Source: Calonectria ilicicola
Taxonomy: Eukaryota > Ascomycota > Sordariomycetes > Hypocreales > Nectriaceae
NCBI GenBank assembly: GCA_020809705.1
Contig: CP085833.1
Span: forward strand, 4,836,001-4,900,000
Reading direction: 5' to 3'
DNA length: 64,000 nucleotides
Numbering within the stretch: position 1 is the stretch's first letter; each line of letters starts with the position of its first letter. Positions 10,087 through 33,538 of this stretch are shown here, in pieces. Below the pieces are notes generated by a model. That model was not told where the DNA came from. It searched no databases and saw only the letters and a program-made list of their open reading frames with translations. The translations under genes were made by a program, and so were the position numbers.

Positions 10087-10100
10087 TTCATTTGTTATTT

Positions 10101-10384
10101 TTCTTTATTTCTTTATTTCTTTATTTCTTTATTTCTTTATTTCTTTATTTCTTTATTTCTTTATTTCTTTATTTCTTTATTTCTTTATTTCTTTATTTCT
10201 TTATTTCTTTATTTCTTTATTTCTTTATTTCTTTATTTCTTTATTTCTTTATTTCTTTATTTCTTTATTTCTTTATTTCTTTATTTCTTTATTTCTTTAT
10301 TTCTTTATTTCTTTATTTCTTTATTTCTTTATTTCTTTATTTCTTTATTTCTTTATTTCTTTATTTCTTTATTTCTTTATTTCT
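10101..10384 (+). repeat. (TTTATTTC)n octanucleotide array
   Basis: About 35 nearly perfect copies of the 8-bp unit TTTATTTC start 15 bases after the stop codon of the zinc-finger gene. They probably lie in its 3' UTR or in the promoter of the JmjC gene. Because 8 is not a multiple of 3, all frames cycle; one is open (FISLFLYF) but is not a gene. Confidence 0.95.
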
Positions 10385-10509
10385 TGTTTTTTTTTGGCTT
10401 TATTCACTTAGTTTTAATAAATCCTGCGTTGAAGCATTCCTGTTGGTTGAACTTCGGCTAATTGTCGGCTTGTGAATATAAGTACTGTCCGCTCCCCCAA
10501 CACGTCCAA

Positions 10510-13026
10510 ATGAACACGTCGTCTCTGCAGGCCCCGCCACACTACCTACTGCTGCACGTCCCAATCCCCGCTATGTCGAACCTTGAGTCTTGGAGGCTGC
10601 AGGTGGTAGCTCTGCGCAAGCAGATTGAGGAGGCTATCAAGCCCCCCGAACCAAAAACGACTCGACAATCAACCAAGCAGCAAAAGAAGGCGCCAAAGAG
10701 GAAAAGAGACGCGCGATGGGGGGCAATCCTCGACCAGATCAATGAGTTGGAAAAACAACTTAACACTCCGCGGGAAGATGTAGAGGTAACGGCTCCCCCT
10801 GCACCACCATCACCGTCACAACCACAAATCGATATCCCCACAGTCCTAAAAGCAAGGAGAGCGCAAAGTCTTCCGCCAATTGGAGCATTCACCAGTGACA
10901 AAACAAGACATTTACTTTCCAATGATGAACAAGCCCCCTCTAACTCTCTGCGCCAACCTTCCCGCATTGTTCAATCTTCAGATGAACGAAGTATTATACC
11001 TAGCCCCTCCCCAAACCTGGACTCGGATGCCACTACTTCGACATCGTCTCAAGATGGAGCCCTGTGTTCCAACTCAACACAACCAACCCAGAGCCAAACC
11101 CCGACCGATTCGGCCCCTTCAACACCGTCTGATACAGAGCAAGACACACCCGAATCCCCAGTGTCAATCATTGCCTCAACCTCAACCTCTTTACCGTCTC
11201 AAGATGACGCACTGCGTTCCAGCGTGGTGGAGTCAAGCCGAGACATGCAAACCCCAACTGAAAGCGCGCCGTCATCCCCGTCGAATACCGAACAAGAGGT
11301 ACCTGAATCACCAATGTCAATAACAACTCCAGCACGAACTAGCTTCACATTGGCACACGATGATATGGGCGAAAACCTTGTCTCAAAACTAGCGACATTC
11401 ATCGAGGACCCTAACTTCAATAATAAAATCTCTGTCGATGTCAACATTAGTGTTTCCATACTTCAAGATGATATAAAGTTTGACCGACCTGTCTATACTG
11501 CTGTTCAGTACACTCCTGGTCCAGGCGATGCCCGTTTTTCACAGTTACTTGTGTCCGAGCCAGGGGGCGAGTTCGAGTGGCCAGACTTTGCTCAGCAGTA
11601 TCAGAAACCAACTGAGATAGAGATGGAGAATCATTTCGAGAAACTTGCGTGTGAACCCCCACAAGAAGAAATTCTCTACTACGGTGGAAATGTCACATCG
11701 GAGTATAACAATCTCCTCGACCCTGGGGAGCAGCTCCGACAGGCCAAAAACATTGAAGTTGCAAACGAAACATATTGGCATATCGGTGGGCCATGCTCGG
11801 GGACTGTCACCCACAAAGAGGACTTCAATTTTCGATCATTCAACCTCACACTTGCCGGTTATAAGCTTTGGATACTCTACAAGGACCAGGACCAGATCAC
11901 AAAGTTCATTCAACAACACTGGCCTGGCAAGCACTGCGACCAATTTATCCGCCACCAATCCTTGATGATCGCGCCGTCAAGGCTTCGTGAAGAGGGGATC
12001 GAGTTCGAAATCTATTGTGCCGGACCTGGTGATGCGGTAGTCACAAGACCAGGCCAAGTCCACGCAGTTGCAAACTTCAGTCCTTGCGTTGCCATCTCAA
12101 TCAACTTTCTACTTCCGAATGAAAAAATCATGTCAGGAAAGGTCTGCAAGGATTGCGGCATGTTTAACTGGGACGAGGCGTCTCAACACAAGACTATCGG
12201 GCGTAAAAGAAAAGCCGATGATCCGCTGCAACCAAGAGCCAAGAGACTATCCCGAAAAGACACGGCGGCGCTTGTCGATACCATAAAAAAGATCCAGGAG
12301 CATGATCCTCTTTGCAGCATCCCCACCAGTTACGAGTCCCATTCACCCGAACCGCATGTCCTTAGCATGGCTGCTGCCACACGAAGTGAGCATGCCATTC
12401 ATCAGTTCATTGATATTGTCAAGACCTGGATAGACCTCAAGACCAACGCCATAGAGGGGTCTTCCGTCTTATGCTCTCCATTCGACCCAAGATCTACCGA
12501 CAAGAATCTCCTAGCGGATCGAATCAAGCAATTTAATCGCGCTTCAAGATCATCTGCATTTTTCTGTTTTATATCTCGATTGAATTCCATATATTTCGTC
12601 AAAGAACGGGAGCTCTTGCTGGGTTGGAAACTAAGAGCAAACGGTCAAATGCTTGATTTGATCTGCAAACAGAACGATTTGACTAGATCCCAGGCCGAAG
12701 CAGCTCAGAAAGAAGGCAATGTATGGAAAGACATACATAATGGTTGCAAAGGGATCCTCCCATTCTTATTCCTAGACGCACATAAAAATCCTTTTGGGAT
12801 TGGGAAAAAGGATTACAAGGGCCTTCGTGCTGAGGATTGCAAGGTTCTACTCAGTTTACTTGATGATGATATCACGAAAACGCTATGTTCTATTGGACAG
12901 GCTTTCGAAGAATGCGTCACTGGTGGTCAGGATGCATATTTCAAACTGAACGGAGAGGTTATTTCTTGGGACAGTCTTTCAGTAGAAAAGATTCGCTCAC
13001 TTCTTCCCATCACCACCAGCCCTTAA
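10510..13026 (+). CDS. JmjC-domain protein, putative histone demethylase/hydroxylase
   Basis: A single frame; the first ATG is at 10510 (MNTSSLQAPP), giving 838 residues. The N terminus has a helical segment (SWRLQVVALRKQIEEAIK) and a basic patch (KKAPKRKRDARW). A Ser/Thr/Pro-rich region at about 170-275 follows, in which a block of about 48 residues is duplicated (SQDGALCSN..TPESPVSI and SQDDALRSS..VPESPMSI). The JmjC core spans about residues 400-545. HKED (His435, Glu437) and GQVHAV (His518) fit the Fe(II)-binding H-x-D/E...H triad, and GYKLWILYKD and PGDAVVTRPGQ fit the flanking JmjC strands. After it comes CKDCGMFNW and a basic segment GRKRKADDP. The C-terminal 250 residues are helical and unassigned. 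An Fe(II)/2-oxoglutarate oxygenase acting in the nucleus is inferred; the substrate is not visible. Confidence 0.8.
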   Translation: MNTSSLQAPPHYLLLHVPIPAMSNLESWRLQVVALRKQIEEAIKPPEPKTTRQSTKQQKKAPKRKRDARWGAILDQINELEKQLNTPREDVEVTAPPAPPSPSQPQIDIPTVLKARRAQSLPPIGAFTSDKTRHLLSNDEQAPSNSLRQPSRIVQSSDERSIIPSPSPNLDSDATTSTSSQDGALCSNSTQPTQSQTPTDSAPSTPSDTEQDTPESPVSIIASTSTSLPSQDDALRSSVVESSRDMQTPTESAPSSPSNTEQEVPESPMSITTPARTSFTLAHDDMGENLVSKLATFIEDPNFNNKISVDVNISVSILQDDIKFDRPVYTAVQYTPGPGDARFSQLLVSEPGGEFEWPDFAQQYQKPTEIEMENHFEKLACEPPQEEILYYGGNVTSEYNNLLDPGEQLRQAKNIEVANETYWHIGGPCSGTVTHKEDFNFRSFNLTLAGYKLWILYKDQDQITKFIQQHWPGKHCDQFIRHQSLMIAPSRLREEGIEFEIYCAGPGDAVVTRPGQVHAVANFSPCVAISINFLLPNEKIMSGKVCKDCGMFNWDEASQHKTIGRKRKADDPLQPRAKRLSRKDTAALVDTIKKIQEHDPLCSIPTSYESHSPEPHVLSMAAATRSEHAIHQFIDIVKTWIDLKTNAIEGSSVLCSPFDPRSTDKNLLADRIKQFNRASRSSAFFCFISRLNSIYFVKERELLLGWKLRANGQMLDLICKQNDLTRSQAEAAQKEGNVWKDIHNGCKGILPFLFLDAHKNPFGIGKKDYKGLRAEDCKVLLSLLDDDITKTLCSIGQAFEECVTGGQDAYFKLNGEVISWDSLSVEKIRSLLPITTSP

Positions 13027-15317: not shown

Positions 15318-17769
15318 CTATAATTCTTCCTCCAGCTGTTCTGGATCAGGCGCCTCAATTCCTCTCTCAGCCATAGTTGGTACAGTCAATTCATGTTCCA
15401 TCTCCGCATCTAATTCCACTGGAAATCCAGCCTGCCTTGAGATTTCATGTTGTTGCACAATTATTGGCTTCTGCAAGGTGCCAGTGAGACTACGTGGAGC
15501 ACTGGGATCCTGAGTCGGCGTTAGACAAATATTCCTAAGTTCTTCCTCAACACACCTACCAAAACTTTCTGAGAGTCCTGGTTTGACCCGGGTCTGACAT
15601 TGCTCACCCCGAATTTATTAGATACCATTATTTCAATTGCTGAGGGCCGTTCAATAGCCTGCGTTGTGTTGCCAACCTGGGAATCTGCTGTTAAGGGTGG
15701 TTGATTATCCTCAGGATCGATGCCATACACTCTTTCCGGTTCAAGCTGTGGTACTTCTAGGGCAAGAGTGGAATTTTCGATATGTTCCTGGGAACTCGTT
15801 GCTAAATTTCCTTGTGAAGCTACTGTGTTGGAGGTTTGTCCCCTTTCAGCCTCTGTGGGCACTCTTCTGTCTGCTTTGTGTCTTTTTCTTCGAATCTCAT
15901 TCTCGTTTATTTCCTGAGCGTTGCCTCTTCTGGTATTTATTTCTACCTGTGCTTTGCTTCTTTCCCAATATCGTTTCCTTGAATTATCTGGAGTTTTGGG
16001 ATTCCAGTAATTGGCATTCCCCATGGCGAGGACCTGTTGTTGGAATTCTGCGTTCATCTCTTGTTGGTCCCCTCCCATCTGTTGGTGGTCTATAACTATC
16101 ATTTGCTGGTTTTCAGAGATTCCATTATCCATTTGAACATCATTCCCATAGCTTCCTAGGTCGACTTCAGGCATATTAAGGGGCTGTGGAACCTCAAAAT
16201 CTTTAAAGAATGCTCGCAACAAATCCCCCAGGATCATTTCTGGAGTAGGCTCGGTTAGATTTCGTGGTACTTGAAAGATATTAGGTAGAAAAGCGGTTTC
16301 TTTCAATGCTCGAAAGGCATGTATTGTAGGCTTTCCCCCTCGCCAGTTACATTTGTCCGACCAATTCATAGAATCAGCTTTGATGGGCCAAAGATCTTCT
16401 AGAGTACCTGGCAACCCTAGTCCTTGTAAGATCGTATCATTTCGAAACCCTAGTTTCATTGCTGTCTCACATAGGCACCGTTGTTGATACCCCACCAGAT
16501 ATGCCCTTATGCCCTTTCCCTTTATATCCTGAAGAGGCTGTTCAGAGCCCAGATATATCATATTCCTTAAAGCGGATAATAAGATCCCAATAAAGGATAC
16601 TCGCGCTGATGCCGAGTCGGTTGTAACTTGAAACACGTGCTCACTCGCCTCCACCACATTGGCCCGAAAAGCCCCAACAAGGTTTGGTGGGCTCCAGTCT
16701 TGCTCGAGGCGTCTGAATAAATTTAGCTCCGGTTTAGGTTGATTACCTTTAATAGGGCCTCGAGTCTTTTTGAAAGGCTTAGCTACATATTTTTCCAATA
16801 TTTTCAGGCCAAGTGTAAGGTACCGTAGGTTCTCTTGAAAGGTTAGAATGCTTGGGATAACCACCTTTAGAGATAGAATGTTTTCCATTAACTTTGCTCT
16901 TAATCCATCGGTAAGCTTTGGGAAATATTCAATAGATTTAAAAACCTTTTGAATATCCCTTCGGTCTTCCTCGCTCCAATGCGGCGCTTTATATTGAAGA
17001 AAATGGACAAGTCTTATATCCAATAAATGCCGTTTATCCATTATGCCCTCAAAAATCTTTGACCACACAGCGTGTATATGATTCCAGTAGTTAACGATCA
17101 TGTCATTGCAATGCGCCGCCAGGTGCTTTGCAAAATTTCCTATATGTATGTCTTCCCAGTGGCCCGCGAACGGCACCAATGCTTGCATTGCAGTCCATAT
17201 TTGACGATGCTTCATGAGCATGCGAACATGCTTTTGTTTACCATCGGACAGCCTGTGCATCCAGGAATAAAACACTTTACTATCGGAATCGTCAGAATGA
17301 CTAAGGATTTGCCTCAGGATCTCTCCATCGCAATATTTCCCTGCATCATAAAAATAAGCATATATAGGGTAGGTATCAATAAAATTTTGTTTTTTTTACC
17401 TGGAGGAATGCAATAAATGCGTATTTCGCATTTAAAGTTATCACCCAAAGCTGCCTTGGCTTTATCCAAAAAGTGATTTCCAAGTAGACAATCAATTTGG
17501 TAAGTATTGTTGTGAAGTGATCGATTGTGATCATTTAGCGTTTGTTGAAACCGATTTTCAGATACATCCAACACTTTCAACATCTCCTGAAACGTGTGTG
17601 GGGTCACAATGCCCGTGATTGGCTGCTGTGGATCTTGGAGAAAGTCTTGGAGTTGGGGCACCGTGGCGTGTTGCGAAAACGCGATTGGGCATTCAGCAAA
17701 GCCATCGGATGAGAGGAGAGATAAGGGAACTACTACAGCTCCCTTGAGATGGTCAGATAAAAATGACAT
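15318..17769 (-). CDS. DUF3723-family protein, Starship-type cargo
   Basis: Three exons: 17769-17400, 17340-15560 and 15509-15318. Introns are GTAAAA..ATGCAG (59 nt) and GTAGGT..TCTAACG..CTCAG (50 nt), both in phase; the product is 780 residues. Residues about 230-320 carry the family signature: DIRLVHFLQYKAP, SEEDRRDIQ, then SLKVVIPSILTFQENLRYL. The N-terminal 120 residues (QQPITGIVTPHTFQEML...CEIRIYCIPPG) and the region to about 480 also fit. The C-terminal third is polar, low-complexity and Gln/Glu-rich, with a basic cluster (RRKRHKADRR). DUF3723 has no known biochemical role; its genes are a recurrent accessory class in Starship giant transposons. It is divergent from the patatin-like gene with only 235 bases between the starts. 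Confidence 0.85.
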
Positions 17770-18004
17770 TTTTGAGTCGTCTTGTTATCAATTACGACCA
17801 ACAAATATTGAGCGCGGCGCTGTGTTCAAATAGGCCATTGTTGATCTTTGAGAAACTGGTGGGGCCTTCTCAGATACGCGTGACGCGAGCGCTTAACTTT
17901 AGCGCCTAAAATAAAATCGGCTTAAATACATGCCTGGACGAGATTCAAGGTAAGCACTTGCGTGTATAAAAGCATGGCCTCTATACAACGGGGCAGCGGG
18001 GCAC
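17770..18004. promoter_or_regulatory. Shared divergent promoter, DUF3723/PLP
   Basis: Only 235 bases separate the two start codons on opposite strands, so both core promoters must lie here. A TATAAAAG-like sequence (GTATAAAAGC) at about 17960 fits the + gene. A GC-rich patch (GATACGCGTGACGCGAGCGC) near 17872 may hold control sites. Confidence 0.55.
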
Positions 18005-20432
18005 ATGCCTGTAGAGCGCAGCTCGCAATTTATTATGTATTCAGACAGTTTAATTCAGCTTCGATCTAATGCCCCGGGTCTTCCTGGCCCCTTTCTCCAG
18101 GAAAATCTCTACCCATACCGTCTCTTTGATGCGCTAGGATCCGCCAGGCCGCGTATAGTTTTGGCCCTTGGCGAGCGTGTTAAAGATCAATTTCTTTCTT
18201 GGGAGTACTCCATGGCTATTGATCATGGCTCAACTTGCTCAGTGGCTCTTGCATTGGTTGATAACCATACGCTATGGCTTGATTGTGAGTTGCACCTTCA
18301 AGTGGACTGCCAAATTCCTCGCATCCAGGCAAGGCATCATGCCCGAGGGATGTGCAATATATATCCTCTCAGATGCGCAGCTAGCTCGGCAACTCAAATT
18401 GCTGATTCTATCTACCGAGATGTCTTGACCCCATTCAGCGATGTTGTGCTTATCTTTGTTCCTGACTTTGGGGGCATTGGGCCTGTAATACAGTTTCTTG
18501 GCCTTTGGGTCCAGAGCGCTGCGAAAAGGCGGTTCTGGAACCCACTGCGCGTTGTGCTCTTCCGCGAAGACATGGCCAAGGATGAGGATATAGATGCTCT
18601 TGTTCTCGCTTCCTTCGCATCACAACTCTCGGATGCAACGAGCCATTACCCCCATCAGTCGATGAAAGAGACAATGGCAAAATGCATTCGTATCAGCAAT
18701 GTGTCGGTGTGGGATGATATCCGACCAACGGTTGAATCAGAGATGATGAACTCATTTCATGATCGAATAAGCCAGGGGCTGGACTTTAAAGCCTGGCATC
18801 TCAAATCACTTCTTCAACAAGCAATTCATCGCTATACAAAATTGCCGCACGAAAACTTTGATCCAATATTAGCATCACGATGGCGGTATCCGTTGCCTAC
18901 TCAACTAGACACACATATTAATATATTTTTGAAAGGGTTCAAAACCATTGGGAATAGTGAGATGGGAATAGCTGCTTCGGCATTGGTGATGGATGCGTAC
19001 CCGCCCGGAATGCATCGTATGTTTCTTGGAGTGGTTCTTAACCTTTAGCTAACAACGCCATAGATTTCCCACCAAAGAATGTTTTTAATAAATTATATAA
19101 GGATTCGGTCAATGAGTGTGAGAGATCACTCAAGCTAACTGGGTTTGCTTCCTCGGTGGAGGAAGATTTTGTGAATCTCGCAACCGATCATCACGCTCTT
19201 GATCTTGATCTTGCTGAAAGCCATTATGCAAGGATCCAACGAAGCCCAATGATGAGAAGTATCAGATTGGAGAGCGTGTGCTCGTTTTGCATTATAAAGA
19301 ACCCGAGATTCACGCTGGACTGTAGGCATCGTCTTTGCTGCACATGCACCATAATTCATGGACATGCTATAGAAGCCTGGCGCTATGCTCTAAACGCCTG
19401 TCCTGTTTGTCAAAGTCCAAACTCAACGACGTTCATTATCCAGCCGCCAACTGCTTGCACCCGAATTCTCAGCCTAGGGGGCACAAATGCAGAGGATACA
19501 CTTAAATTTCTGAAAGATCTTGAAAGATCAGTTGGCCTCAACTCTATGCCTTTTCGAGAACACTTTGATAGTGTGAATGGGTCAGACATAGGTAAAAAAA
19601 GGCGATACCCCTTTACTACAAAGAAAAGAACATTGATTTAGCTGCAAGGTATTTTTTTCATATTAACGGCATTCATGGGAGGCTGGAGTCTTGAAGATTG
19701 TAAATATCATCTCCGTAATATTAAGGGTGCTAGGTTTCGGAAAAGAGCCATCAAATTTGGGAAACGCCTAAAGTTTGATCTTAGTCAAACAGTATTTTTT
19801 AACCATACTACGGTTTCCTTATCGACAGGAAAGAACAAATTCAACAATGGGGTAATTGCGCGGTATGTGTTTATTCTCTGAGGCTTATCGTCGTATTAAT
19901 ATATTTCAGGGATAGCTCCGCTGTTCATCTGCGATACGAAGGAGGCGCATACAATCATCAATTACGCACAATATCAAGCGAATTACAGGCTAGTCTATTT
20001 TATATAGAGCTTGCGAATATGCCCAAACTCCATACAAGCCCTGAAGTATGCACTGTTAGGATGTACTGCCGGGTACCACCTGGCAATGCGTTATTGGATC
20101 TTGTATTTAAGCTTCATAGGGAGAGCAGGCGTCTTTACTATCGAGGAAGTGAACCTGGACTGACCCAGTCGGCATTATGTCCTGAGGATGTAGTAAAGAG
20201 ATGCTGCGGCTATGAGCCCTTCATACGAGAATTTCGAGTGGAGATATCCTCCCTGGATACGAGCATTCAGGTATCAATCGATGGTTCTAACGGAGACGGA
20301 AGCAGATACAATATAAGCAAATGTCCATTTACCATTAGAAAAATCATTCAAGATCAGGAGCTTGATTGTGTTTTTGGTAGGAGAGATAGGAAGATATGCT
20401 ATAAAACATGGGTTATAGGGGGGGGGATATGA
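18005..20432 (+). CDS. Patatin-like (PLP) protein with ruined active site
   Basis: Four exons: 18005-19016, 19064-19591, 19649-19862 and 19910-20432. All introns are GT..AG and frame-keeping; the first has branch TAGCTAACAAC. The product is 758 residues. The N-terminal 330 residues match the fungal PLP head (DSLIQLRSNAPGL, LYPYRLFDAL, LGERVKDQFLSWEYS). Next comes a Cys-rich RING-like element (CSFCIIKN..CRHRLCCTC..CPVC), then the patatin start PPTACTRILSLGG. The oxyanion motif DGGGxR is replaced by GGTNAED (residues 476-482). The nucleophile elbow GTSxG reads GSDIG (510-514), with Asp512 where Ser belongs. After GWSLEDC about 200 residues of the usual domain, including the catalytic Asp, are missing. 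The family's C-terminal part resumes at ASLFYIEL and CRVPPG. Splicing and frame are intact, so this looks like an expressed pseudo-enzyme or a recent internal deletion. PLPs are recurrent Starship cargo. Confidence 0.8.
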
Positions 20433-20528
20433 GGCTGGATAAGCCATCTGAATATTTTTAAAGTCAACCGATGTCATATAATAATATAAATAATATCGAT
20501 AAAAAGGAACTGTAAACCGCCCTCCACT

Positions 20529-22061
20529 TCATTCATCATCCTTCATATAGTCATCTTCATCCTCGGTATAGTCTTCATAATCCTCCATATCATCTTCATC
20601 ATCGCTCATATGGCCTTCATCGTCAATATAATCTTCATCCTCCTCTACTACCCTAAAAGACTGGGCTTCCTCTGCTGGGAATGACTTTTGAAATAGTAAC
20701 TGCCTCACACCTTCAAAAGTATATGGTAGTTTGGCGGTATCAAGTTCCTCCACCATTCTGTGAAATGAGTCATACTTTGAATTTCTTGCCCATGATGGAT
20801 TCGCTTCTTTAGCAAGAAGCCAAAGATCAATCATTCCTGGGCGCAAGTGTAGCCAATTCAAGAACTTTGTTCCTGACAAGGATTCAATATTCTCGAAAGC
20901 CGATCCAAGTTGATCAATGGAAAGGCCCATTTCAGCTACCCGTATCTTTTGTGTGGGCATTGTCGGAGGGGTCGGTGGAATGACCAATAAACGAGATTTG
21001 ATAGCCTCCGCAGCATCAAATTTAAAACAATCAAGCGCCGCGGCTATATCACTATCGCGTGCTTCAATTCCGAGCTCGAATAGGACAGGGAAAATTCGTT
21101 TCCAAACGTCCCCAGGAGACCTGGCGACCCAGCCAAAGATCCCATAATAATAATCTGACATCTTCATTTTTTTGGTTTTGATGAGATACCTCACAAGGTC
21201 TTCTGACCCAACTGCAGCAGCTGCATGGAGAGCCGTGGTGTCATTACTGAAGTAAAGTGGGGCACCCCTCCGAATTAGTAGTCTAGCCACCTTGAACTTT
21301 TGTGTATAAATAGCTGCTTCCAAGGGCTGTCGATCATCGGAGGATTCGTTGTAAAGAGGAACACCACTAGCGATCAGATATTCAACCAGAGCGGTATTTC
21401 CCTGTTCAGCTGCTAAGGCCAGTGGTGACATCCACACTGTTGTAAAGGACAGCAAAGGTGTCCAGAATACCTTTCTCGGCATTTGGATCCTCTTGATCTT
21501 TGCCCCGGCTACTATAGCATCCGCAATCATCGTAAAAGTCGCTGAACTTTTTACTTTTCTGGAGCAAAGTGTAAGAATTCTCAAATCTGGGGTTTGAGGA
21601 AGTGATTCATTGTAATAATGAATGGTTTGTAGTTTGCTGACATCCAAATATCGAATTTGTACACCGTTTATTTTCTGTAGAGATTTACGACAGAAGGGAC
21701 AAGATTTGATCTGTTTTTGTTGCCAACACTTTTCGCAAAATGAATGTCCTAAATTATAATTAATATTGACCATATTTAATTTTAAACTAGTCCTTACCAC
21801 AAGGCGAGAATATCTGCACTCGACTATCAATACATATGGGGCAAGTAGAGTCATCCCAATTGTATTGCCGGATCATGGAGTTTGATCGGCAGCAGTCGCA
21901 ATACAGCTGAGACCAGGTTAGATAAAAATGGATGAGGTGGGCACAGCACATACCCATCCATCTCCAGGGATGCGAAAGACTTCTTGACCTTCCTTGAAGA
22001 CTTTGAGGCAGTTTCTGCAATTGAAGCAGGGCTCCGCAGAATCAACGATTGTGGTAGACAT
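20529..22061 (-). CDS. RING-finger ankyrin-repeat protein, putative E3 ligase
   Basis: Exons 22061-21954, 21906-21798 and 21748-20529, with introns of 47 and 49 nt. The product is 478 residues. The N terminus has paired cysteines (CFNCRNCLKVF, YCDCC). A RING finger then spans exons 2-3: CPICIDSRVQIFSPCGHSFC, CEKCW, CPFCRKSL. Ankyrin-like repeats occupy about 170-290 (SPLALAAEQGNTALVEYLIA, RQPLEAAIYTQKFKVARLLI, TALHAAAAVGSEDLVRYLI). The last 45 residues are almost all Asp/Glu/Tyr. RING plus ankyrin suggests a ubiquitin ligase with a repeat-based substrate reader, which is an inference. The neighbouring + gene at 22855 is also an ankyrin protein and shares the 793-bp divergent promoter. Confidence 0.8.
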
Positions 22062-22854
22062 TTGAATGGAATAAGAGGTTGATGAATCGAGGGAGAAAGG
22101 GAGATATTAGCTGAGGACAGTTGATGAACTCAAGATTCGAGAGGACATCGGTATTTTATAGTTTTCTTGTCGGACCGAGAGGATTGGCCAACAAGCAGAC
22201 CCGGCTCCGCCGGCAGGGGGAATCTGACTATTCAGACTTGGAGGCGCATATTACGCCTTAGCTGATGAGTTATGACTTCAGCCGGCCTTGTAAGAGGCCT
22301 TGGAACATCAGGAGAGAGGAGACGAAGGAGGGTGGTTGCATCATCACCGGTTACAATAGCCAATAAGAATGATGTGGAGTATCCTCTTCTTGACCACAAG
22401 GTCACCCACGGACAGCTTAACGGCCGTCATGATACAATTTGGCGCCGTAATTGTGGCGATGTACAGTGACGTACCAATCAAACTGAAGAACATACCGGCT
22501 CAGGGGACATGAAAGCCTGGGTGTGCCTTGGCTTAGCTTGGCCTGCTGGAAGGTTGATCTAGCATGGTAGCTCATTGGATACGGCGGAGCGGGAAGACCC
22601 AGGCGGCCTGTCAACGAGGTCTTTACACGATGGGTTCGAAGTTGGCTTGTTGGCTCCCTGTGTATGGGTTGCGGAGGCGGTGCAATATAGAGCCCCTGAG
22701 TTATCGTACCCCTTTATTACACTTGGTACAATGTAGCTGAGAGGTTAATGTGACCGGAAAAGAGATATAATGCTTGGGTTTCGCCCTCTAAATTAGCAGA
22801 CGCATTTCTCATATCAATCATCTTACCTTCGGAAATCACCAAGAAGAAACGGCA
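22062..22854. promoter_or_regulatory. Divergent intergenic region between two ankyrin genes
   Basis: It holds the promoters of the flanking genes. I see no gene, tandem repeat or RNA. Confidence 0.4.
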
Positions 22855-23667
22855 ATGAAGAACGATCAAAAAATGGCACCATCTGAGCAGGTCCAAGAAG
22901 TTCTTGACATGACAGAAGAGCTTTTAAAGCTCGTTCAATGGAGGCCACAGCCTTTTCGATTTATCAGACGTCAAGTATTAATTGTCAGGCTCAAAAAAAT
23001 CATCTATGAAGAAGACCTCGATAATTCAAAACTATCCGAAGAGCAGAGATTGATTCTGGCCATTGAAAATGGCCGTGAGGAAGAATTCTCTCTACTATTG
23101 CCATTTCAGACTTTTCCCCTCGACGACTTTGAAGGGAAACGAGAATCATCCATCAAATACATCGAATACGCCTCAAAGCGGACCTTAATGTGGATTACTC
23201 CTTTGCTTCTGGCAGCTATGGAAGGCCGTGATGTAGTGTTATGTGTCCTATTGGAGTTCTTGTATATCGATCAGACACCAAGTGACTCCAATTGCACGGC
23301 ACTTTTCATGGCTATCTCGTGTGGACGAGTTCAAACTGCGAAAATGCTTTTAGGCCGAGGCGCTTCATTGGGTGCATGTGGGCGACATGCTATTCAAGCT
23401 GCGGCTATAGGAGGCTCAGAAGAGATGATCACAGAACTTGTAAAAGAGTTTGGAGCAGACCCGAATTTGGAAGACGTTGATGGAACTACGCCGGTCGTTT
23501 ATGCTCTGCAGCTTCCATTGGAGAAAGCGGCCAAAATAATTAAGCTGCTCCGTCAATTCGGTGCATCAGACAACCTCGAGTTGGGGGAAAGACGAGATTG
23601 GACATTCAGAGACTTGGCTTATGCAGCAGGAAAGGAGTCATTGTCATTGATTTTCACTGAGCCATAG
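22855..23667 (+). CDS. Ankyrin-repeat protein
   Basis: A 270-codon single exon. The first 60 residues are helical and charged. From about residue 65 the chain shows ankyrin-type helical pairs: QRLILAIENGREEEFSLLL, TPLLLAAMEGRDVVLCVLLE, TALFMAISCGRVQTAKMLLG, HAIQAAAIGGSEEMITELV and a last one starting TPVVYALQLPLEKAAKII. The GADPN turn motif is present once. There is no RING or other effector domain, so it probably acts as a binding partner. It differs in sequence from the ankyrin part of the RING gene but could share ancestry with it. Confidence 0.75.
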   Translation: MKNDQKMAPSEQVQEVLDMTEELLKLVQWRPQPFRFIRRQVLIVRLKKIIYEEDLDNSKLSEEQRLILAIENGREEEFSLLLPFQTFPLDDFEGKRESSIKYIEYASKRTLMWITPLLLAAMEGRDVVLCVLLEFLYIDQTPSDSNCTALFMAISCGRVQTAKMLLGRGASLGACGRHAIQAAAIGGSEEMITELVKEFGADPNLEDVDGTTPVVYALQLPLEKAAKIIKLLRQFGASDNLELGERRDWTFRDLAYAAGKESLSLIFTEP

Positions 23668-23758
23668 GACACAGAAGTGTGCTTAAGATATAAGAAATGT
23701 ACATTGGAAAGACTGGCAGATTATTTAATAATACATTGGCTTATTTCATCCCTCCTTC

Positions 23759-24400
23759 CTAATCGAATACCTCCAGTAGTGAGACGAGTGCTCTCCTCTG
23801 CCGCGCGGACATAGATGGAGATCTTGCTGGAGATCTTGATATGCGCCGTGGTGGTGGAGACGGTGATAGAGACGGTGACGGAGATCGTGGTGGTGAAGAC
23901 TGTGATGGAGGCCGTGGTAATGATCTTGTGCCGGTAGATTCTGGAGTTGGTGACATTGAGGGTGCTCTTCGCGGCGTGCTTGGTGGTGTTACGCCGGTGG
24001 CAGCTGAGCTGGCTGACGAGCTGACTGACGAGTTGGCTGTTGACAAGCTCACCAATGAACTAGCCGATGAGATTGAACTAGCATTGGATGAAGCAAAAGT
24101 CGAAGTCGAGGAGAATGAAGCCTGTTGGCTTAACTGTACGCGCTCTGGCGTACAATTCACCATGTCTGAAGGGGTCTGAAGTGTCAGGCCACCCGACTGA
24201 TACTTTGCAAACTCTTGTAGAAGGCCAGGCTGAGACTCAAAGCCAGTGAATCCATCCTCATCGTTGCCGACTAAGACGACGACTTTTTCTTGATAGAGAC
24301 GATGGAGGTCATAACATTTTTTGATAGTACCCTTTCGGCAATTTTTAGTGCCAGCCTTCATGTTCTTGTTCCTCTCTGAACGGATTCGGGCTCGGGCCAT
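23759..24400 (-). CDS. MADS-like small DNA-binding protein with Ser/Pro tail
   Basis: Start chosen at ATG 24400 (MARARIRSERNKNM); an in-frame ATG at 24490 would add 30 low-complexity residues. The product is 213 residues. Residues 10-50 (RKGTIKKCYDLHRLYQEK then VVVLVGND) follow the pattern of the MADS-box recognition helix and first strand (R-x-x-T/G-[IL]-x-K-K-x-x-E/D-L...V-x-V-x-V). The extreme N-terminal MADS residues are lost. GLTLQTPSD follows, then 130 residues rich in Ser, Pro, Thr and Arg. A related domain sits at 39215. A degenerate MADS fold is inferred from pattern only. Confidence 0.55.
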   Translation of the reverse strand: MARARIRSERNKNMKAGTKNCRKGTIKKCYDLHRLYQEKVVVLVGNDEDGFTGFESQPGLLQEFAKYQSGGLTLQTPSDMVNCTPERVQLSQQASFSSTSTFASSNASSISSASSLVSLSTANSSVSSSASSAATGVTPPSTPRRAPSMSPTPESTGTRSLPRPPSQSSPPRSPSPSLSPSPPPRRISRSPARSPSMSARQRRALVSLLEVFD

Positions 24401-24580
24401 GATGAGCAAATGTATGTTGGGATATTGTAGTGATTGTGAAAGGAGGAGTGGATGTGGTTGGTGAGATGATGATACTGGTAATGGCACCATGGCGGACCTT
24501 TAAGTAGAATTCATGGTGAAGCGCCGGGAGGCGAGGAGGGTGCATAGTGGATCAAAGCAAGGCATCGAGAAGTGTACAGT

Positions 24581-24700
24581 GGATAACCGCCTTGCGGCCC
24601 CACCACACCGGCGCTTGTGCGCAGAGCCAAGGGGTTGTAGGAGGGTACCGAAATAGTCCAAGGCGGATAACCGCTTTGCGGCCCCACCACACCAGCGCTT
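24581..24700 (+). repeat. Two direct copies of a 36-bp GC-rich repeat
   Basis: GGATAACCGCCTTGCGGCCC...GCGCTT at 24581-24616 recurs almost unchanged at 24665-24700, 84 bases on. It lies in the 575-base gap between the MADS-like gene and the ferric reductase gene, which otherwise holds only their promoters. Confidence 0.75.
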
Positions 24701-24975
24701 ACGCCGGAAGGGACCCACTGGTTGCGCCGGCCTGCCTCCGATACTAACATAAAAATTGCTGCCACTTGAAGGTTTGCTGCAGCTTGGCGGTTAGAATAAA
24801 GTAAAGACCTTGGCGCTTAACTCTCAACAAGTCCCAAACTTAATTTTGAGCTCTTAGTTTGGGTTCTCAGTTCTCATTTTCCAGCAACGAAAATAAGCAG
24901 TACCGTTCATAACACAGGCAATGCCGTTGACTAAATCAATGTGCAAGTATTTCAACCCTCAAATGAATTTCCGCC

Positions 24976-26927
24976 ATGGATACAACACTATGGTATCTGA
25001 TTGCATTCTGCATTCTTTGCGCTACCTCTGTATTTATCCGCGTCTTAAAGTCTTGGCTTCCCAACTTTAGGAAACGGTACATACGGTTTATTAAATACCC
25101 TCTCTTTATCCGTCGTCGAAGGTATTGGGATAGTGTCACGCGCCTAGAAGCTGGGGTTGTGATTCTATTTTTCTTGGTCAATATTCTTGTCATTATTGCA
25201 CCATGGAGCACTATTGACTGGAGACATATTGAGAAGCGATTAGCTCTAACTTCTAGTATCAATATGATTCCCCTGTTTTTAGGGGGCCGTATGGGATACA
25301 TTATTCAGACGTTGAATATACATAGGAGCACATATATATTTGTCCATCACTGGATTGGTCGGATAGCCATTCTAGAAGCTTTGGCTCATGCAATCATCGC
25401 GCTTCAGCTTCGGCCACGCCCTGGAGCGCTAGTGACATCTGGATGGATCGTAAGTATCACCACAGAGCGTTTGAACGGGAATAAAGCGCTAATTTACCCT
25501 TTTAAGACTTTTGGAACCCTATTAGGCCTATTGATACTGTCATTGTGCGGTATAAGAATAATGTTTGGCCGGTGGTTTCTGCTTAGCCATCGAGCAATCG
25601 CGCTCTGTGCAATTTCTGGTTTAGTATGGCATGCCTTCACTGTCTCCAATTTGCAAGCTCAGATTATTGCCGGAGTCTGTTGTAGTATGTGGGGGTTGTC
25701 TACTTTACACCGAATGTATAACATCTTTAGCCGGCGGTTGTGGGCTGAGGTTGTTGACATTGATGCGGACTCAAGTATGGTTCGCCTTGATGTTACTTTA
25801 CGGTATCCAGTAAGAGTCAACCCTGGCAGCTACTTCAACATATTTTTCCCTGGAAAGGTTAGCTCTTATGCTTTAATACACAGTTATCCGACAGTAGCCT
25901 TCTGGCACGTGCCAGATTTCGCAAGTCCCTCTGGGGAGGTCTCGGATATTAGTTTCTTGCTCACACGTCGAGGAAGCTATGCTGAAGCTCTGATTAGGCT
26001 CCAGAGGGGCCAAAGACTGCTTCTAGATGGTCCATATGGCCAAAATCTTGGTCTTGAAACATATGAAAACGTCATTCTAATGGCAAAGGGAGTTGGAATT
26101 GCTGGCGTCCTCCCGCTAGCGCTTGAGCTTGCAGAAAGACGGCAGCATGATGACCAAGTTAGGGCGAAATTACAACAGTTATCAACTAAACAGCAAGCTC
26201 TTATAGCGCGAGAAAAAAATTCCGAAGAGGCTAGTCGGGTATCAGTCGCCAAGGAGCGGGCGGAGATTACGCAGGAAAAGGCCGTGTACGCTAAAAAGTC
26301 GCTCTTTCGTGATGCTACAAGAAAGATTATTATTTTTTGGTCCCTTGAGCATAACTCGCAGATGGGCCTTGTTGAAGTCCAACTAAAAGTTCTCCAAAAA
26401 ATGGACCCTGAAAATGTAAGCGGAATATTTTTTCTTTATCCTTTTCATCGCTCAATGCAATGCTGATGCATTAATAGAAGCTATTTGTGGTGTGGTGTGG
26501 GGTGCCTTGCCCGATGGTCGGAACCCCTCCATTCAATCTCGAATCTACATTTTGGATGTGTATTGAACCAGCTCCACAGCGACGATCATTTGAATCACTC
26601 ATTATCTCCAAAATTAAAGAGGAGCGCCGGAGGTTGCATGGGCGTATGATTGTTACGAGTATGTGTCTCCGATTTAGTTTCACCACTCCAACTCCACTAA
26701 CCCTTATAGCGTGTGGCGATGCCGAATTTACGAATGGGGTCCGTCAAGGGGTTATTGACAGCATTGATACTATGGATATTGATTTTACCGAAACTGAATA
26801 CCGCCCTCAGGGTATGAACATTTCTCTAGGTGGCGGGACAAGGAGGCGCAGTAACTCGCAAGAGACCGAAATGCGCGACCTCAACCCTCGTCTATCTTAT
26901 GGATCTTCATACTCTGTTCGAAAGTAG
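24976..26927 (+). CDS. Ferric-reductase-like (FRE) protein, Starship-type cargo
   Basis: Exons 24976-26415, 26478-26658 and 26710-26927 (introns 62 and 51 nt, the second with branch CCACTAACCC); the product is 612 residues. Several TM segments fill residues 5-245. Two histidine pairs with exactly 13 residues between (His124/His138 and His205/His219) are the bis-heme ligands of the family. NADPH-site motifs are present: GPYG (352-355), KGVGIAGVLP (371-380) and, in exon 3 after splicing, TCGDAEF. The FAD motif HPFT is altered to HSYPT (302-306). A coiled-coil insertion of about 65 residues (QLSTKQQALIAREKNSEEA..) splits the NADP domain. It transfers electrons across a membrane in known members; here cofactor use may be changed. 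FRE is one of the recurrent Starship accessory classes. Confidence 0.8.
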
Positions 26928-28143
26928 ACTAGATAAATAGTTTCTGGCGATTCATGAAAATTATTATTATTATTTCGTAAGGGTGTGCTATACACGGCAA
27001 TATGAGAGTTAATTGTATGGTACAGATAAAATTACTAACAGTACCGATGATTATAAAACCTAGTTGTATTGATGGTGCTCCCTTCTTGGTTGAGCTCGCT
27101 CTTACCTTTAGAAACAGAATTTATGATTATTGATTTAGTTATTTATAGACTTTCTAGAATCAAACAGGCCTCACTGATTCGTACATAGTACACATATAGA
27201 ATAAATCATGTCTTTTAATATGTCTTTCGGTCACGAAAGATGGTCTTAATCCTGCCAAAAATCTACACTCAAAAAAACAAACACTTATATCCCTGATCCC
27301 TGTCGCTGGCTTTTCAATTAGTGGACTAATAATTACCTGATTAGTAAGTAATTTATGACCTTCTACTGGACTGGATTAATCTAAAAAATCGGCCTTCCAA
27401 AGTTTATTTTCTTTCTCTTTGCTTAGACTTTGGCCTTGAAATAGTACTAGCTTTTGTTTTTCTTATTGGCAGTAGGATGTTTTATGAATTTTATATTTGT
27501 ATATATTTATTTTTATTGGGTAAGGGTTTGGCTGTTAGAAGCTGATAAGGGCCATTGGAAGCTGTGCTAAGAGTACATAAATAGGCGGCTACCGCCGCGG
27601 CCGCCTAACTGTTGAAGGTAAGGTTAATTAATTAACTATCGATTATAAGCTAGAGAAGAGGCTTTAATATTAGGATCTCTTAATGATCATATCACCTACC
27701 TAGGCATCTAATAGTCTAATTATAGTTTTAATTAAGTATATTTAGTTACTCTATGTGCTTAATAAAATATATAGATAATTTATTATGAAAGTAGGCTCTT
27801 TATATTTATTATTTATCTTATTATTATAATCTACTTTTAATATATTTTTATTAGATATTATAAAAAATAATTATTTAATAAAGGTAATATAATTAAGTTA
27901 TTAAGCTTATACTAAGTATTCTATAGTAGGCTATAATTTCTATTATAATATTATAAAATAAAATATATATATCTTTTAAAATAATAGATTCTTCTTTAAG
28001 GCAAATTAAGTAAATATAGAATTATTTATAATTATACTATAATTATTACTATTATTTATAATTACTAATTATAATTTAATATTTTTTAATATTATTTAAT
28101 AATAATTAAACTATTAAACTACTTCTAACTCCTAAACCCCATT
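26928..28143. other. AT-rich intergenic stretch, left edge of RIP block
   Basis: No gene. Composition falls from ordinary to strongly AT-rich at about 27620, just after a GC-rich island (GGCGGCTACCGCCGCGGCCG near 27582). After it almost all sequence is A/T, consistent with RIP beginning here. Confidence 0.55.
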
Positions 28144-31100
28144 ATATTAACCCCTCCAATACACAAGCAGCTATCCCCATACAAATATACTATCGGCTAG
28201 ATTAGCACACTATCTATCAAACACACTATAACTATCAAGATGCTTAACAAGAAACACAAACCCTTACTATTGCAAAACAACAACACAACCTTATATATAT
28301 TAAGCTAGGTCTATAACCACAATATTATAATCGCCTATCTACCTGCTAGTATAATTAGCATCATCTTCGCCACAACCATCATAATATGCTTAGTAAATTA
28401 TTTTCACAATATTAGAATTAATTTTATAGTTAATATTAGTAGTAGTATTCTGTCCGAGGTTAATATCTGTTTGGGTGATATAATTGTTAATTAACCTAGT
28501 AGTGGGTATAGCGGTGTGATATAGTATGATATGGGGAAGCGACTGCCTGGCGGCAGATTCGAATAGACTAGCCACCTTAATAAGCTGCTAAGCCTATTAC
28601 TAAGTGTAGTTGCTTAGGTGTAATTGAATTACTTCCAGATATAAAGTACTTTTGTAAGTTACCTCTTTAAGCTTGAATAAAACCTGGTGTTCTAGTGGGA
28701 GGAGGTAGGCTTACATTGATTATTTTAATTAATATATTAGTATAAAGGTGGCCTGAGTTGTGTTAGATATGATAAGTAGTAGTTAGTTTAAAGAGACCCT
28801 TGCTTTTAATATAAAATAATATAAATTTATTATAATAATATTATATTAGTTAATTTATTTATAAAAGATAGTATTAAATATAATAGTATTTATTAAAGCC
28901 TTGGTAATAATATTCTTTACTTTAAAATAGAGATAGCTAGCCTAATAAATAACTTCTCTTATTTTATAGTATATAGTATTTACGATTATATAGATTTTTA
29001 TAAAAATAAGATATAGTAGCTGTATATGGTAGCAGTAGTAGTAGTGTATGTAAAAGAGATCCTATTGGTTATTCTACTAAGGGATATAGTAAACCTAGAT
29101 CTAATAAAAGATAGGCTAAATCTTATATATAATATAGAATAATAATATAATAAATATTAATTAATTAATAAATATTTTTAATAATATTATTTATAGTACC
29201 ATTTCCTAGAAATCAACTATTTATTAACTAAAATAATATCCTTATATATCTCTATTAATACTTTAAGGATCCAAAATAGCATCCTTATATTACTATCTAT
29301 GGCCTAGGAGGTAATAGGAAAACCATTATTACTATTAAACTTATATATCAAATTCAACATACTTATCCCTACTATATAATATACTAGATCTTTTCATTTA
29401 TAATAAACTGGTTCTAGGAATTATACTAGGAAATTGCTAAATACTTATAGATTCCTAGTATTAATAATCTAAAGAAAGATATACTTAAGCTAGTTTGTGA
29501 AAGATTAAGTAGATTAGAATAAGAGAAATGGCTAATAATTATTAATAATATAAATAATAAAAGTATTCTATTTATTATAATTAATAGCTATTGTTTATAT
29601 AATTATCTTTCTAATAATTAATATAGATTAGTACTTTTTACTATATATAATCTTAATATTATTATTGATTTTATATAGAATAATATTTGCAACTTAGAAG
29701 AGATAGAGCCTAATAAAGCAATAAATTTAATATAATATTCTTTAGATTTTTTACTAAAAGAAAAAATAGTTTATTTAAAAAATACTATAAATAAATTTTT
29801 AATCTTACTAACCTACCTACCCTTAACTATTATCTAAATACTTACTTTTATAAAAAAGAATAATTATTTTTTAAAAAATATAATAAGCTCTTTTTAAAGA
29901 TCTATTAATCTACAATTAAGTTATTATAAATAGATTTCCAAGATCTAACCTATATAAAAAAATCATATAATACTATAATTATAATATAGTAGATCTCTTT
30001 TAAGTAGATTTAAAAAAGAACCAACTTATTACTAAGTACCTTTCCCTTATAATATATATTATATTATAAAAGATCCTATAGATACTCTTTCCTTCTATAT
30101 AATCTTAAATTAAGTAAGTATAAGCTATTAGTATATTTATAGATTATATTTTTTTAAGTAGTTAAAAAGAGAAAGGCTTTTATAATATATATATTCTTAT
30201 TTACTATATTATATAGAACTAATTAAGGATAAATAAAAAATAAATCTAGATTACTAAAGAGAGTATTAAATATTTAATAGAATTAATTTTAACTAGTAGA
30301 TATAAAGAGTTTAAATAATATCCTCAATATATTTCCTATAATCTATATATAATAAATATTAAAAAAATAAATAAAAAGAAAAAAATAATTTACCTATTAA
30401 ATAATATTAACTACTATTACTATTAGCTTAAAGATTATAATAATATTATTTTAATATATTAAAAGATACTTAAATAAAGGGAAGAAATGATTAGATTAAA
30501 GTAAAAAGCTATATTAAATAGTATAAATAGTTTAAGAAGGGCATTAACTAATCAAAGGAACTATAGTAAAATAGTTAAAATACACAAAGAGATATTAGAC
30601 TTAAGAATAGAGGTTCTTAGGCCTGAATATCCTGATATAATGATCAGCATGGCTAACCTTGCATTAACATACAGGGACCAAGGCCAATAGAAAGAGGTAG
30701 GGAAGCTAGAGGTATAAGTAATAGAGACTTGCAAGACTAAGCTAGAAGCCGACTATCCAGATACACTAACTAGCATAGCTAATCTTGTATTAATATATAG
30801 GAAGTAAGGCCGATGGGAAGAGGTAGAGAAGTTATTTGTGTAAGTGATGGAGATGAGCAAGATTAAACTAGGAGCCGACCATCTAGATATATTAACTAGT
30901 ATGGCTAACCTTATATTAATATATAGAAAGTAAGGTTAATAGGAAGAGGTAGAGAAATTATTTATATAAGTGATAGAGACTTATAAGATTAAGCTAGAAG
31001 CCAACCATCTAGATACACTAATTAATATAGCTAATCTTATATTAATATATAGAAAGCAAGGCTAATAGGAAAAGGTAAAGAAACTATTTATACAAGTGAT

Positions 31101-31443
31101 AGAGACTTGCAAGACCAAGCTAGAAGCTGACCATCCAGATATACTAATTAATATAGCCAATCTTGCATTAATATATAGGAAGCAAGACTGATAGGAAGAG
31201 GCAGAGAAGTTATTTATGTAAGTGATGGAGACTTGTAAGATTAAGCTAGGAGCCGACCATCCAGATATACTAACCAGTATGAATAATCTGGCTTTTACTT
31301 AGAATAGCCAAGATCGCTATAAAGAAGCACTGGCGCTAATAGAATCTTACATCCAGGCTCAGCAATAAGTCCTTAGTATACATTATCTATATATAGTATC
31401 ATTATTATATACTTTAGAAAAGTAGAGGTTTCTTAGGTACTAA
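28144..31443 (+). pseudogene. RIP-degraded NLR: PNP_UDP, NB-ARC, TPR
   Basis: A fungal NOD-like receptor is readable through many stops. From 28144 to about 29110 one frame carries a nucleoside-phosphorylase-like (PNP_UDP) domain: TIG*ISTLSIKHT, SEVNICLGDIIVN, SGYSGVI*YDMGK, then FYKNKI**LYMVA. Near 29190-29500, in another frame, NB-ARC begins with FIVPFPRNQLFIN and a P-loop YGLGGNRKT where GLGGIGKT is usual. From about 30560 the first frame resumes with six 42-residue TPR units (PDIMISMANLALTYRDQGQ and similar) ending in ALALIES near 31350. Stops fall where Trp, Gln or Arg codons are expected (TGG, CAA, CAG, CGA to TAG/TAA/TGA), the mark of C-to-T changes. The frame changes may be introns or indels. 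In intact relatives the protein senses ligands through repeats and triggers cell death; this copy cannot be made. Confidence 0.85.
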
Positions 31444-32339
31444 TCGAAGTACCGCAGAAGCCTAAGTGGTAAACAGCTTAAAGGAGCTAGCACTATCATA
31501 TTTAATTACAACTAGACTCTCGCCATATAATAGCCAGATGTAAACAACACTAAAGAAAAAACAATGCTCTCAGAAACCTACAGCCAAGGCACTGGCAGCT
31601 ACCTTAATAGCGCCTTTAGTATGGCTCTAGATCTTACCGCGGCTTATGGTAAAACCAACCAGACGCAGGCGACCCCAAAGCCAAATCAAACTACCAAAAT
31701 GCCTCTATCACCATCAATTAGAACAAAGCATTCTGACAATATCACACCAGGAACAAGTAAAGCCTATAAGCCCGAGGAACATACTACAAACACAAACCTC
31801 CCCCAAGGCCAAAGCAATCTGAGCCACAACCCTACTCAAGCGAATAGCTTATAAAGCTATCGGTAGCGAAAAAAAGAGAAAGAAAGTCTGAGATCAGTAA
31901 GAGCGAAAATAGTAGTAAAAATAAGAGCTTGCTGGCAGAAGTTATTTAAACGTAAGAATAATTCATAACCTTTTTCACAGCTATTATTTAATACGACTGG
32001 GGAATTTGATGATGGGGTTTTCCTTAAAATGATATATATAAGGCTAAAAGATCAATTCTTCTTCCCAACTTCTTTTCTTGCCCCCCTAGAACTAAATACA
32101 CTTGATTAGAGCACTATTTTCACAAACAAACAAAGCAAGGGCCAGCTTTAAGCCTCGTGCCGAAAGACTAATAGTGCAAGGGAGCCGCCAATCTGCCCGC
32201 CCAGCCCGCCTTCCGACTTCCAACCGGCGGACGGGCACATTCCTATGCTCGAGGAACGAGAGTTCTTTTTCCCCGCTTTTTTTTCGCCCTCTAAAAATCT
32301 CTAGGCGAGCTAGTTGAGAAAGGTAGGTGTTGCTCTCTG

Positions 32340-32716: not shown

Positions 32717-33018
32717 TATAATGGTGGTTATGGTTAAACCAAGGCTCGCGTTCCTCGAGCGTATTATGTGCGAACGCCCTTTGTGTTTCTAGCTCGCTCG
32801 CTTCTCGCTTCACAGGCGTGAGCTCATTCCGCAATGTGAGTGAGTCTGGGGATTTGGGTTATAGGAATAGTAGCTGCTGGGTTATAATTACTAGTCGTTT
32901 TATGCAACTATTGCGGGGTCAAGAAGGTGTTGAGGGCAGGCCACGTGACCCTAGTCGACACGTGACCGATCTTTGGGAATACCAAAATTGTACTCTTTTC
33001 TCAGCCCGTACAGCTATC

Positions 33019-33312
33019 ACAACAGTCCTCGCAGCAGTCCTCGCAACAGTCCTCGCAACAGTCCTCGCAACAGTCCTCGCAACAGTCCTCGCAACAGTCC
33101 TCGCAACAGTCCTCGCAACAGTCCTCGCAACAGTCCTCGCAACAGTCCTCGCAACAGTCCTCGCAACAGTCCTCGCAGCAGTCCTCGCAGCAGTCCTCAC
33201 AACAGTCCTCGCAGCAGCTATCACAACAGTCCTCGCAGCAGTCCTCACAACAATCCTCGCAACAGTCCTCGCAACAGTCCTCGCAACAATCCTCACAGCA
33301 GGTATCACAGCA
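33019..33312. repeat. 12-bp minisatellite (CAGTCCTCGCAA)n
   Basis: About 24 copies with small variants (GCAG, TCAC, CAAT). The unit is a multiple of 3, so long frames arise in several phases: TVLA and SPRN repeats on +, CCED repeats on -. None has a convincing start, so I treat it as DNA repeat rather than a gene. Confidence 0.9.
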
Positions 33313-33538
33313 GTTCTCTAAACACTTCTCGCAACAGCCCTCACAACATTCCGCGCAAGAATGTGCCACGTTGATATTTTTGCTTAGGGAAGCAAATTGG
33401 ACTAATAGGATATAAAAGAGGCTGGGGCCCAACGCGTGCCATTTGTAATCGAGCCGTAGCTCCACCTCGTACACACCGCACGGAGGCGCGCAGTTTTCTC
33501 CTTGGTGAAAATAGACCTAATGTTCAATTGGTCAATGT

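Follow-up and report, generated by a model that had tools for sequence, protein, structure and literature searches.

Starships are giant transposons that are recognised by a DUF3435 tyrosine-recombinase captain, which is the first gene and lies at the 5′ edge, by target-site direct repeats, and by a presence/absence polymorphism. Four accessory classes, DUF3723, ferric reductase (FRE), patatin-like (PLP) and NLR, recur in these elements according to the text available from two sources (PMC12506042, PMC10175614), as the first-pass annotation of the locus described here had correctly stated. The same classes are given for Sanctuary, Horizon and Enterprise in the parts of their descriptions that could be consulted, and ankyrin genes are described in Horizon. 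These classes are not diagnostic of Starships, because the Gaeumannomyces Starships are without DUF3723, FRE and PLP in the available portion of their description (PMC12134995). In Cochliobolus heterostrophus, DUF3435 and DUF3723 genes are present, and FRE, PLP, NLR and other Starship features were not found, as far as the available sections of that report extend (PMC10128009). Icarus of Pyrenophora tritici-repentis is described, in the text available from PMC9594970 (where its DUF3723 is in places printed as DUF3273), as a putative Starship that lacks a captain; in one isolate it has genes for DUF3723 and patatin, and other transposons are present.

The sequence analysed here, referred to as the window, is a 64 kb stretch (positions 4836001-4900000) of contig C9, which is 5.22 Mb long; the genome is represented by one assembly of 69.9 Mb in 12 contigs. 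The features of the window are collected in Table 1. Its accessory block resembles the Starships named above in its gene classes, and Horizon in its ankyrin genes. It differs from Starships in that the contig has no match to the captain profile, the edges and target-site repeats could not be placed, the NLR-like piece sits in a separate repeat, and the PLP is gutted. It shares the features of Icarus listed above, but in the account of PMC9594970 Icarus is bounded by terminal inverted repeats, and a strain lacking the element has a potential target site. There is also a likeness to fungal accessory chromosomes and regions, as these are presented in the available part of PMC13373834, in that paralogs of the block families are found on a small contig (C12) and an island lies on a large contig. 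The reading that we prefer, at roughly even confidence, is that the block is an island of accessory-type genes left stranded on C9 without a captain, related to the gene content of C12, and not a working Starship.

Table 1. Features of the window, numbered from its first nucleotide.
Feature	Position	Strand	Evidence and remarks
JmjC protein	10462-13026	+	JmjC E 5.6e-15; lies to the left of the accessory block
DUF3723 gene	17784..15521	-	two exons, open; PF12520 E 3.1e-48 on 15524-17395
PLP relic	18005-19758	+	N-terminal and RING-like parts retained, catalytic motifs degraded
Ankyrin protein with partial RING	20532-21872	-	Ank_2 E 1.7e-11; Prok-RING_4 27.9 bits (cut-off 27)
Ankyrin protein	22792-23667	+	Ank_2 E 1.1e-15
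ORF earlier called MADS-like	23759-24499	-	SRF-TF E 0.14, 12.1 bits (cut-off 26), not significant
FRE gene	24976-26927	+	two exons, joined frame open for 629 aa; PF01794 E 1.9e-7; exon 2 by tblastn
Dispersed repeat of about 140 bp	26984-27124	.	among the matches listed, 10 of the 12 contigs have copies, at 80-92%
RIP-degraded dispersed repeat of about 5 kb	27218-32248	+	copies on C7, C3, C10 and C12; separate from the block
TPR array ('NLR remnant')	30604-31390	+	inside the 5 kb repeat; TPR_10 E 8.7e-34, stops read as X

The cluster is genuine but partly decayed, with the DUF3723 and FRE genes intact. Domains and relatives were searched for mostly in six frames, and the homologs of the block genes are fungal. 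The GC3 of the block genes (0.38-0.48) overlaps that of their neighbours in the window (0.41-0.48, compared by eye with one neighbour left out).

The DUF3723 gene, which lies on the minus strand, was correctly called in the first-pass annotation. A frameshift was considered and rejected: the overlapping frames are accounted for by a 59-nt GT-AG intron (17399..17341). Exon 1 gives a weak match to the start of the PF12520 model (E 0.0099, 15 bits), below the curated cut-off of 22. Nine homologs were found, the best by E-value having 41% identity. The genome holds one further locus, C12:718109-719830, which spans more of the PF12520 model than the window gene does. A ParB-like motif suspected in the N-terminus of the C12 protein found no support in Pfam or in sequence searches of the PDB. 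For the window protein, a single shallow fold prediction with exon 1 left out gave no useful fold match. By eye, MULE- and DDE-transposase-like ORFs adjoin the C12 gene (C12:712001-722000).

The call of a ferric-reductase-like gene also holds. The FRE gene has a 62-nt intron (26416-26477), and its product has two pairs of histidines, each with a spacing of 14, which we take to be the haem-binding residues: in an alignment of ten sequences, H124 and H138 are invariant, and H205 and H219 nearly so. At least 31 homologs are present among the matches listed. The best by E-value is 53% identical over 97% of the length, and others reach 58% over half of it. Alignment-based scans found no relatives of FRE in viral contigs or in genome contigs, and none of DUF3723 in viral contigs. 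Recent horizontal transfer is not supported, given the identities of the best homologs by E-value for the two genes. Directly 3′ of FRE lies the repeat of about 140 bp.

The third class fares less well. Active patatin-like phospholipases carry the motifs GGGxRG, GxSxG and DG[GA]. The ORFs of the window PLP have no Pfam match to the Patatin domain, and none of the 20 Patatin stretches in a scan of the genome falls in the window. In a protein search of the genome it has a single other relative, at C12:622625 (29% identity, E 2.4e-11), and it is solely through this paralog that its kinship with the patatin-like family can be upheld. The C12 copy, with which the window copy aligns through the RING-like part, has GGGIRG and GTSSG where the window copy has GGTNAE and NGSDIG. 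When pieces of the C12 protein were compared with the window by tblastn, identities were 27-28%; the third piece matched only at E 0.24, and the fourth was unmatched. At E <= 1, the C12 piece that carries QDGG has no counterpart in the window. The window PLP thus lacks the catalytic motifs of an active phospholipase and is predicted to be a relic or a non-catalytic derivative. It has an in-frame intron at 19017-19063, and ORF 19803-20432 may be its C-terminal part, as judged by eye.

Two ankyrin proteins had been placed between these genes, one of them with a RING; both are upheld, with the RING partial. The ankyrin-RING gene has paralogs at C12:1042598 (2.3e-64) and C12:951865 (1.8e-43), followed by a decayed one at C2:7207537. 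For the other ankyrin gene the top match elsewhere in the genome is decayed, at C2:7184827 (40%). On C2 the decayed relatives of the two genes (C2:7184827-7208457) lie 22 kb apart and are oriented in opposite directions, like the genes of the window; they may be the remains of a third, ruined copy. The MADS-like gene was not recovered (Table 1).

The 'NLR remnant' proved to be something else. In a self-search of 20 kb against the genome (69 matches; 39 of 216 candidates scored), the sequence containing it was found to be a dispersed repeat of about 5 kb, with copies at C7:1897945-1902445, C3:6289388-6294429, C10:4182431-4186417 and C12:734414-739135. Several of the matches have a common left end, several have a common right end, and others are shorter. 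The GC content is 0.23 in the bin 28001-30000 and 0.31 in the bin 30001-32000, with composite RIP indices of 0.62 and 0.48, respectively. The NLR-like piece consists of TPR repeats alone, in five 126-bp units (30652-31280). No NACHT or NB-ARC domain was found at E <= 1 in six frames of 27218-32199, read with X at stops, where RIP could hide one. At least 86 NACHT stretches occur in the genome, and among the matches listed none lies in the window. The 5 kb repeat is a separate insertion beside FRE, and an NLR as cargo of the block is rejected, the NLR-like piece belonging to the dispersed repeat.

Some further features of this repeat may be recorded. Possible TATG..TATG repeats flank it, a GC-rich inverted repeat lies near its right end, and several of its copies carry a TPR array resembling those in NLR genes. 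C12 has many DNA stretches like the TPR array of the window (for example 1201427-1203609 and 1318833-1322206), but just one of the 86 NACHT stretches among the matches listed.

The first-pass annotation had regarded the co-occurrence of DUF3723, PLP, FRE and NLR within 16 kb as a Starship-type set. Half of this stands, namely DUF3723 and FRE. Since its PLP is a mere relic and its NLR piece comes from a different repeat, the set as a whole is not good evidence.

That annotation had also seen no DUF3435 captain in the 64 kb, and the profile for this family (PF11917), run in six frames, agrees: it has no match in the window or anywhere on C9. The absence of a captain within several hundred kb, together with synteny of the whole block across related species, had been set beforehand as refuting a Starship; as far as PF11917 sees, no captain is present over that distance. 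The profile detects seven stretches in the genome, on C5, C6, C7 and C11, six of them above the cut-off; none is on C9 or C12, the two contigs that have DUF3723. A tblastn search for captain-like pieces covered 284 kb of C9, including 200 kb of right flank and 20 kb of left flank, and nothing convincing was found (best E 0.028). The queries were eleven ORF pieces chosen by hand from L001, L002 and L004, three captain-like loci out of the seven (L003 and L005-L007 were left out); some of the pieces overlap, and not every one is sure to code for a captain. The extension of the flanks that had been proposed as a check yielded no captain in these searches.

Elsewhere in the genome, the closest captain-like stretch lies 405 kb from a listed patatin match and 660 kb from a listed FRE match. 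For these distances the 20 patatin stretches were taken as 18 loci (three joined to adjacent stretches of a single gene, the C12 PLP added) and the 22 FRE stretches as 22 loci (one joined in this way, the C12 FRE added), while two adjacent captain stretches on C6 were counted as one.

A self-comparison of the same 284 kb revealed local repeats only, and no element edge could be placed. The target site of Voyager does not occur in the window even when one mismatch is allowed, which excludes that target alone. With no captain, no edges and no close copies found, an active or recent Starship is rejected. It is very unlikely that the block belongs to a mobile element, be it a Starship or another kind, that is still live and has a captain which escapes PF11917 in six frames. 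Introns and divergence do hide genes from a search made with one profile and pieces of three loci, but PF11917 picked up stretches elsewhere down to 25 bits. The block is also without a close DNA copy among the matches listed, and the PLP relic and the RIP-degraded repeat indicate age.

The main rival to our reading is a derelict Starship: the block would have been part of a giant transposon that has lost its captain and edges, or in which these have decayed past recognition. The gene classes fit the accessory classes reported, Icarus is a published captain-less putative element with DUF3723 and patatin (PMC9594970), and elements termed 'degraded' or 'derelict' through loss of the captain have been described (PMC12134995), all as far as the available text of these sources goes. 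Some captain-like stretches elsewhere in this genome contain internal stops, though these may be introns. Against this, the profile and tblastn searches of C9 found no captain, the self-comparison showed local repeats alone, the Voyager site (the one target so excluded) is missing from the window, and neither NLR nor PLP can be counted as intact cargo. We regard a derelict Starship as possible, and less probable than the island. Of the Starship membership that had been offered as an inference, the identification of the accessory families holds, and two of the four classes do not hold as cargo.

What the block does contain is a linkage between DUF3723 and FRE. Both DUF3723 loci of the genome have an FRE within 12 kb, the second pair being DUF3723 at C12:718109 and FRE at C12:729580. 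By chance, an FRE would be expected this close to a DUF3723 in about 0.016 cases, assuming 23 FRE loci (the lists give 22) and two DUF3723 loci. Homologs of the two genes are also found together on a 98772-nt contig of F. oxysporum (BFJ69_g12403 and BFJ69_g12395) and on a 17764-nt metagenome contig (P0003 and P0010), a shared contig being judged from equal contig sizes and, for F. oxysporum, also from locus tags. The linkage is therefore seen in four places. Two of the nine DUF3723 homologs are paired by contig with an FRE match in this way; the other seven are unmatched among the matches listed.

A second pattern concerns C12, which at 1.36 Mb makes up 1.9% of the genome. Seven genes of the window were searched for paralogs, and the best is on C12 for five (JmjC, DUF3723, PLP, ankyrin-RING and, weakly, FRE), on C2 for one, and absent for one. 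The JmjC paralog (C12:230958-232793) is 44% identical with E 1.2e-127, the next being on C3 at 4.5e-9. For FRE, the C12 match has E 2.5e-7 and 22% identity, with C1 next at 1.2e-6, and the C12 gene is nearer to another subfamily (700 bases of it score 48 bits with a Stipitochalara FRE vs 30 bits with the window FRE). As a control, eight of 208 domain stretches (NACHT, patatin, FRE and ankyrin, among the matches listed) are on C12; these listings are incomplete, having missed the C12 FRE, and the stretches are not independent genes. Fisher's test gives p 2e-6 for five of six genes and p 8e-5 for four of six, on the assumption, true only in part, that the stretches are independent and the genes were chosen beforehand. 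Ankyrin stretches are enriched on C12 regardless (7 of 80).

Paralog identity is 22-44% where measured (DUF3723 excluded), and the relationship would be an old one. Against our reading, the genes are arranged and oriented differently on the two contigs, and a DNA search with 20 kb found nothing in common between the window and C12 beyond the two dispersed repeats, among the matches listed. The telomere repeat occurs within the first 200 bases of C12 and is absent from the last 200. C12 is at most a candidate accessory chromosome.

These observations bear on a further explanation, that numerous, fast-evolving families have come to lie side by side by chance in a distal region of the chromosome. 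The families are indeed numerous (genome-wide, at least 86 stretches for NACHT, 80 for ankyrin outside the window gene, 22 for FRE and 20 for patatin), and the region is distal, the right edge of the window being 320 kb short of the end of C9 and the island about 0.3-0.4 Mb from it. However, the presence of an FRE beside each of the two DUF3723 loci, the recurrence of the pairing on two further contigs, and the concentration of best paralogs on C12 argue against chance on the sequence data, and we consider this explanation improbable.

For the island, which is the simplest account, the following history would explain the observations. The DUF3723-FRE pair, being prone to stay together, would have arrived or duplicated long ago, probably from a gene pool that is now also found on C12. 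The captain at the C9 locus would have been lost, or would never have been present. The PLP would then have decayed, and the TPR-bearing repeat would have inserted beside FRE and mutated in the manner of RIP. The frames of DUF3723 and FRE are open, and both genes are therefore probably still used by the cell, FRE presumably, from its family, as a membrane haem/FAD reductase. A more speculative version, to which we attach a low probability, is that DUF3723 and FRE form a two-gene module which persists and spreads without a captain, exchanging between small accessory and large chromosomes, with Starships as one carrier.

Accessory families serve as a hint of a Starship where the captain is unseen, and the present case shows that this hint can mislead, here through a gutted PLP and an 'NLR' from another repeat. 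What survives is the DUF3723-FRE pairing, seen again in other fungi, together with a gene pool in common with the small contig C12. The Pfam entry of DUF3723 gives no function, and if its pairing with FRE is general, this would provide a handle on it.

A few features lie outside the block. A gene on its right, at 47102-48445, has no paralog in the genome, and an asparaginase gene at 58244-59245, taken as a control for species distance, has three homolog matches at 29-31% identity and is uninformative in this respect. A perfect 8-bp tandem repeat of 35.8 copies is located at 10100-10385, between a C2H2 gene and the JmjC gene. In the region 33001-33516 there is an array of a 12-bp repeat (33020-33358, 28 copies), and the minus strand there has a cysteine-rich repeat ORF. 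Finally, the right end of C9 and the left end of C11 have identical sequence in opposite orientation, which is subtelomere-like.
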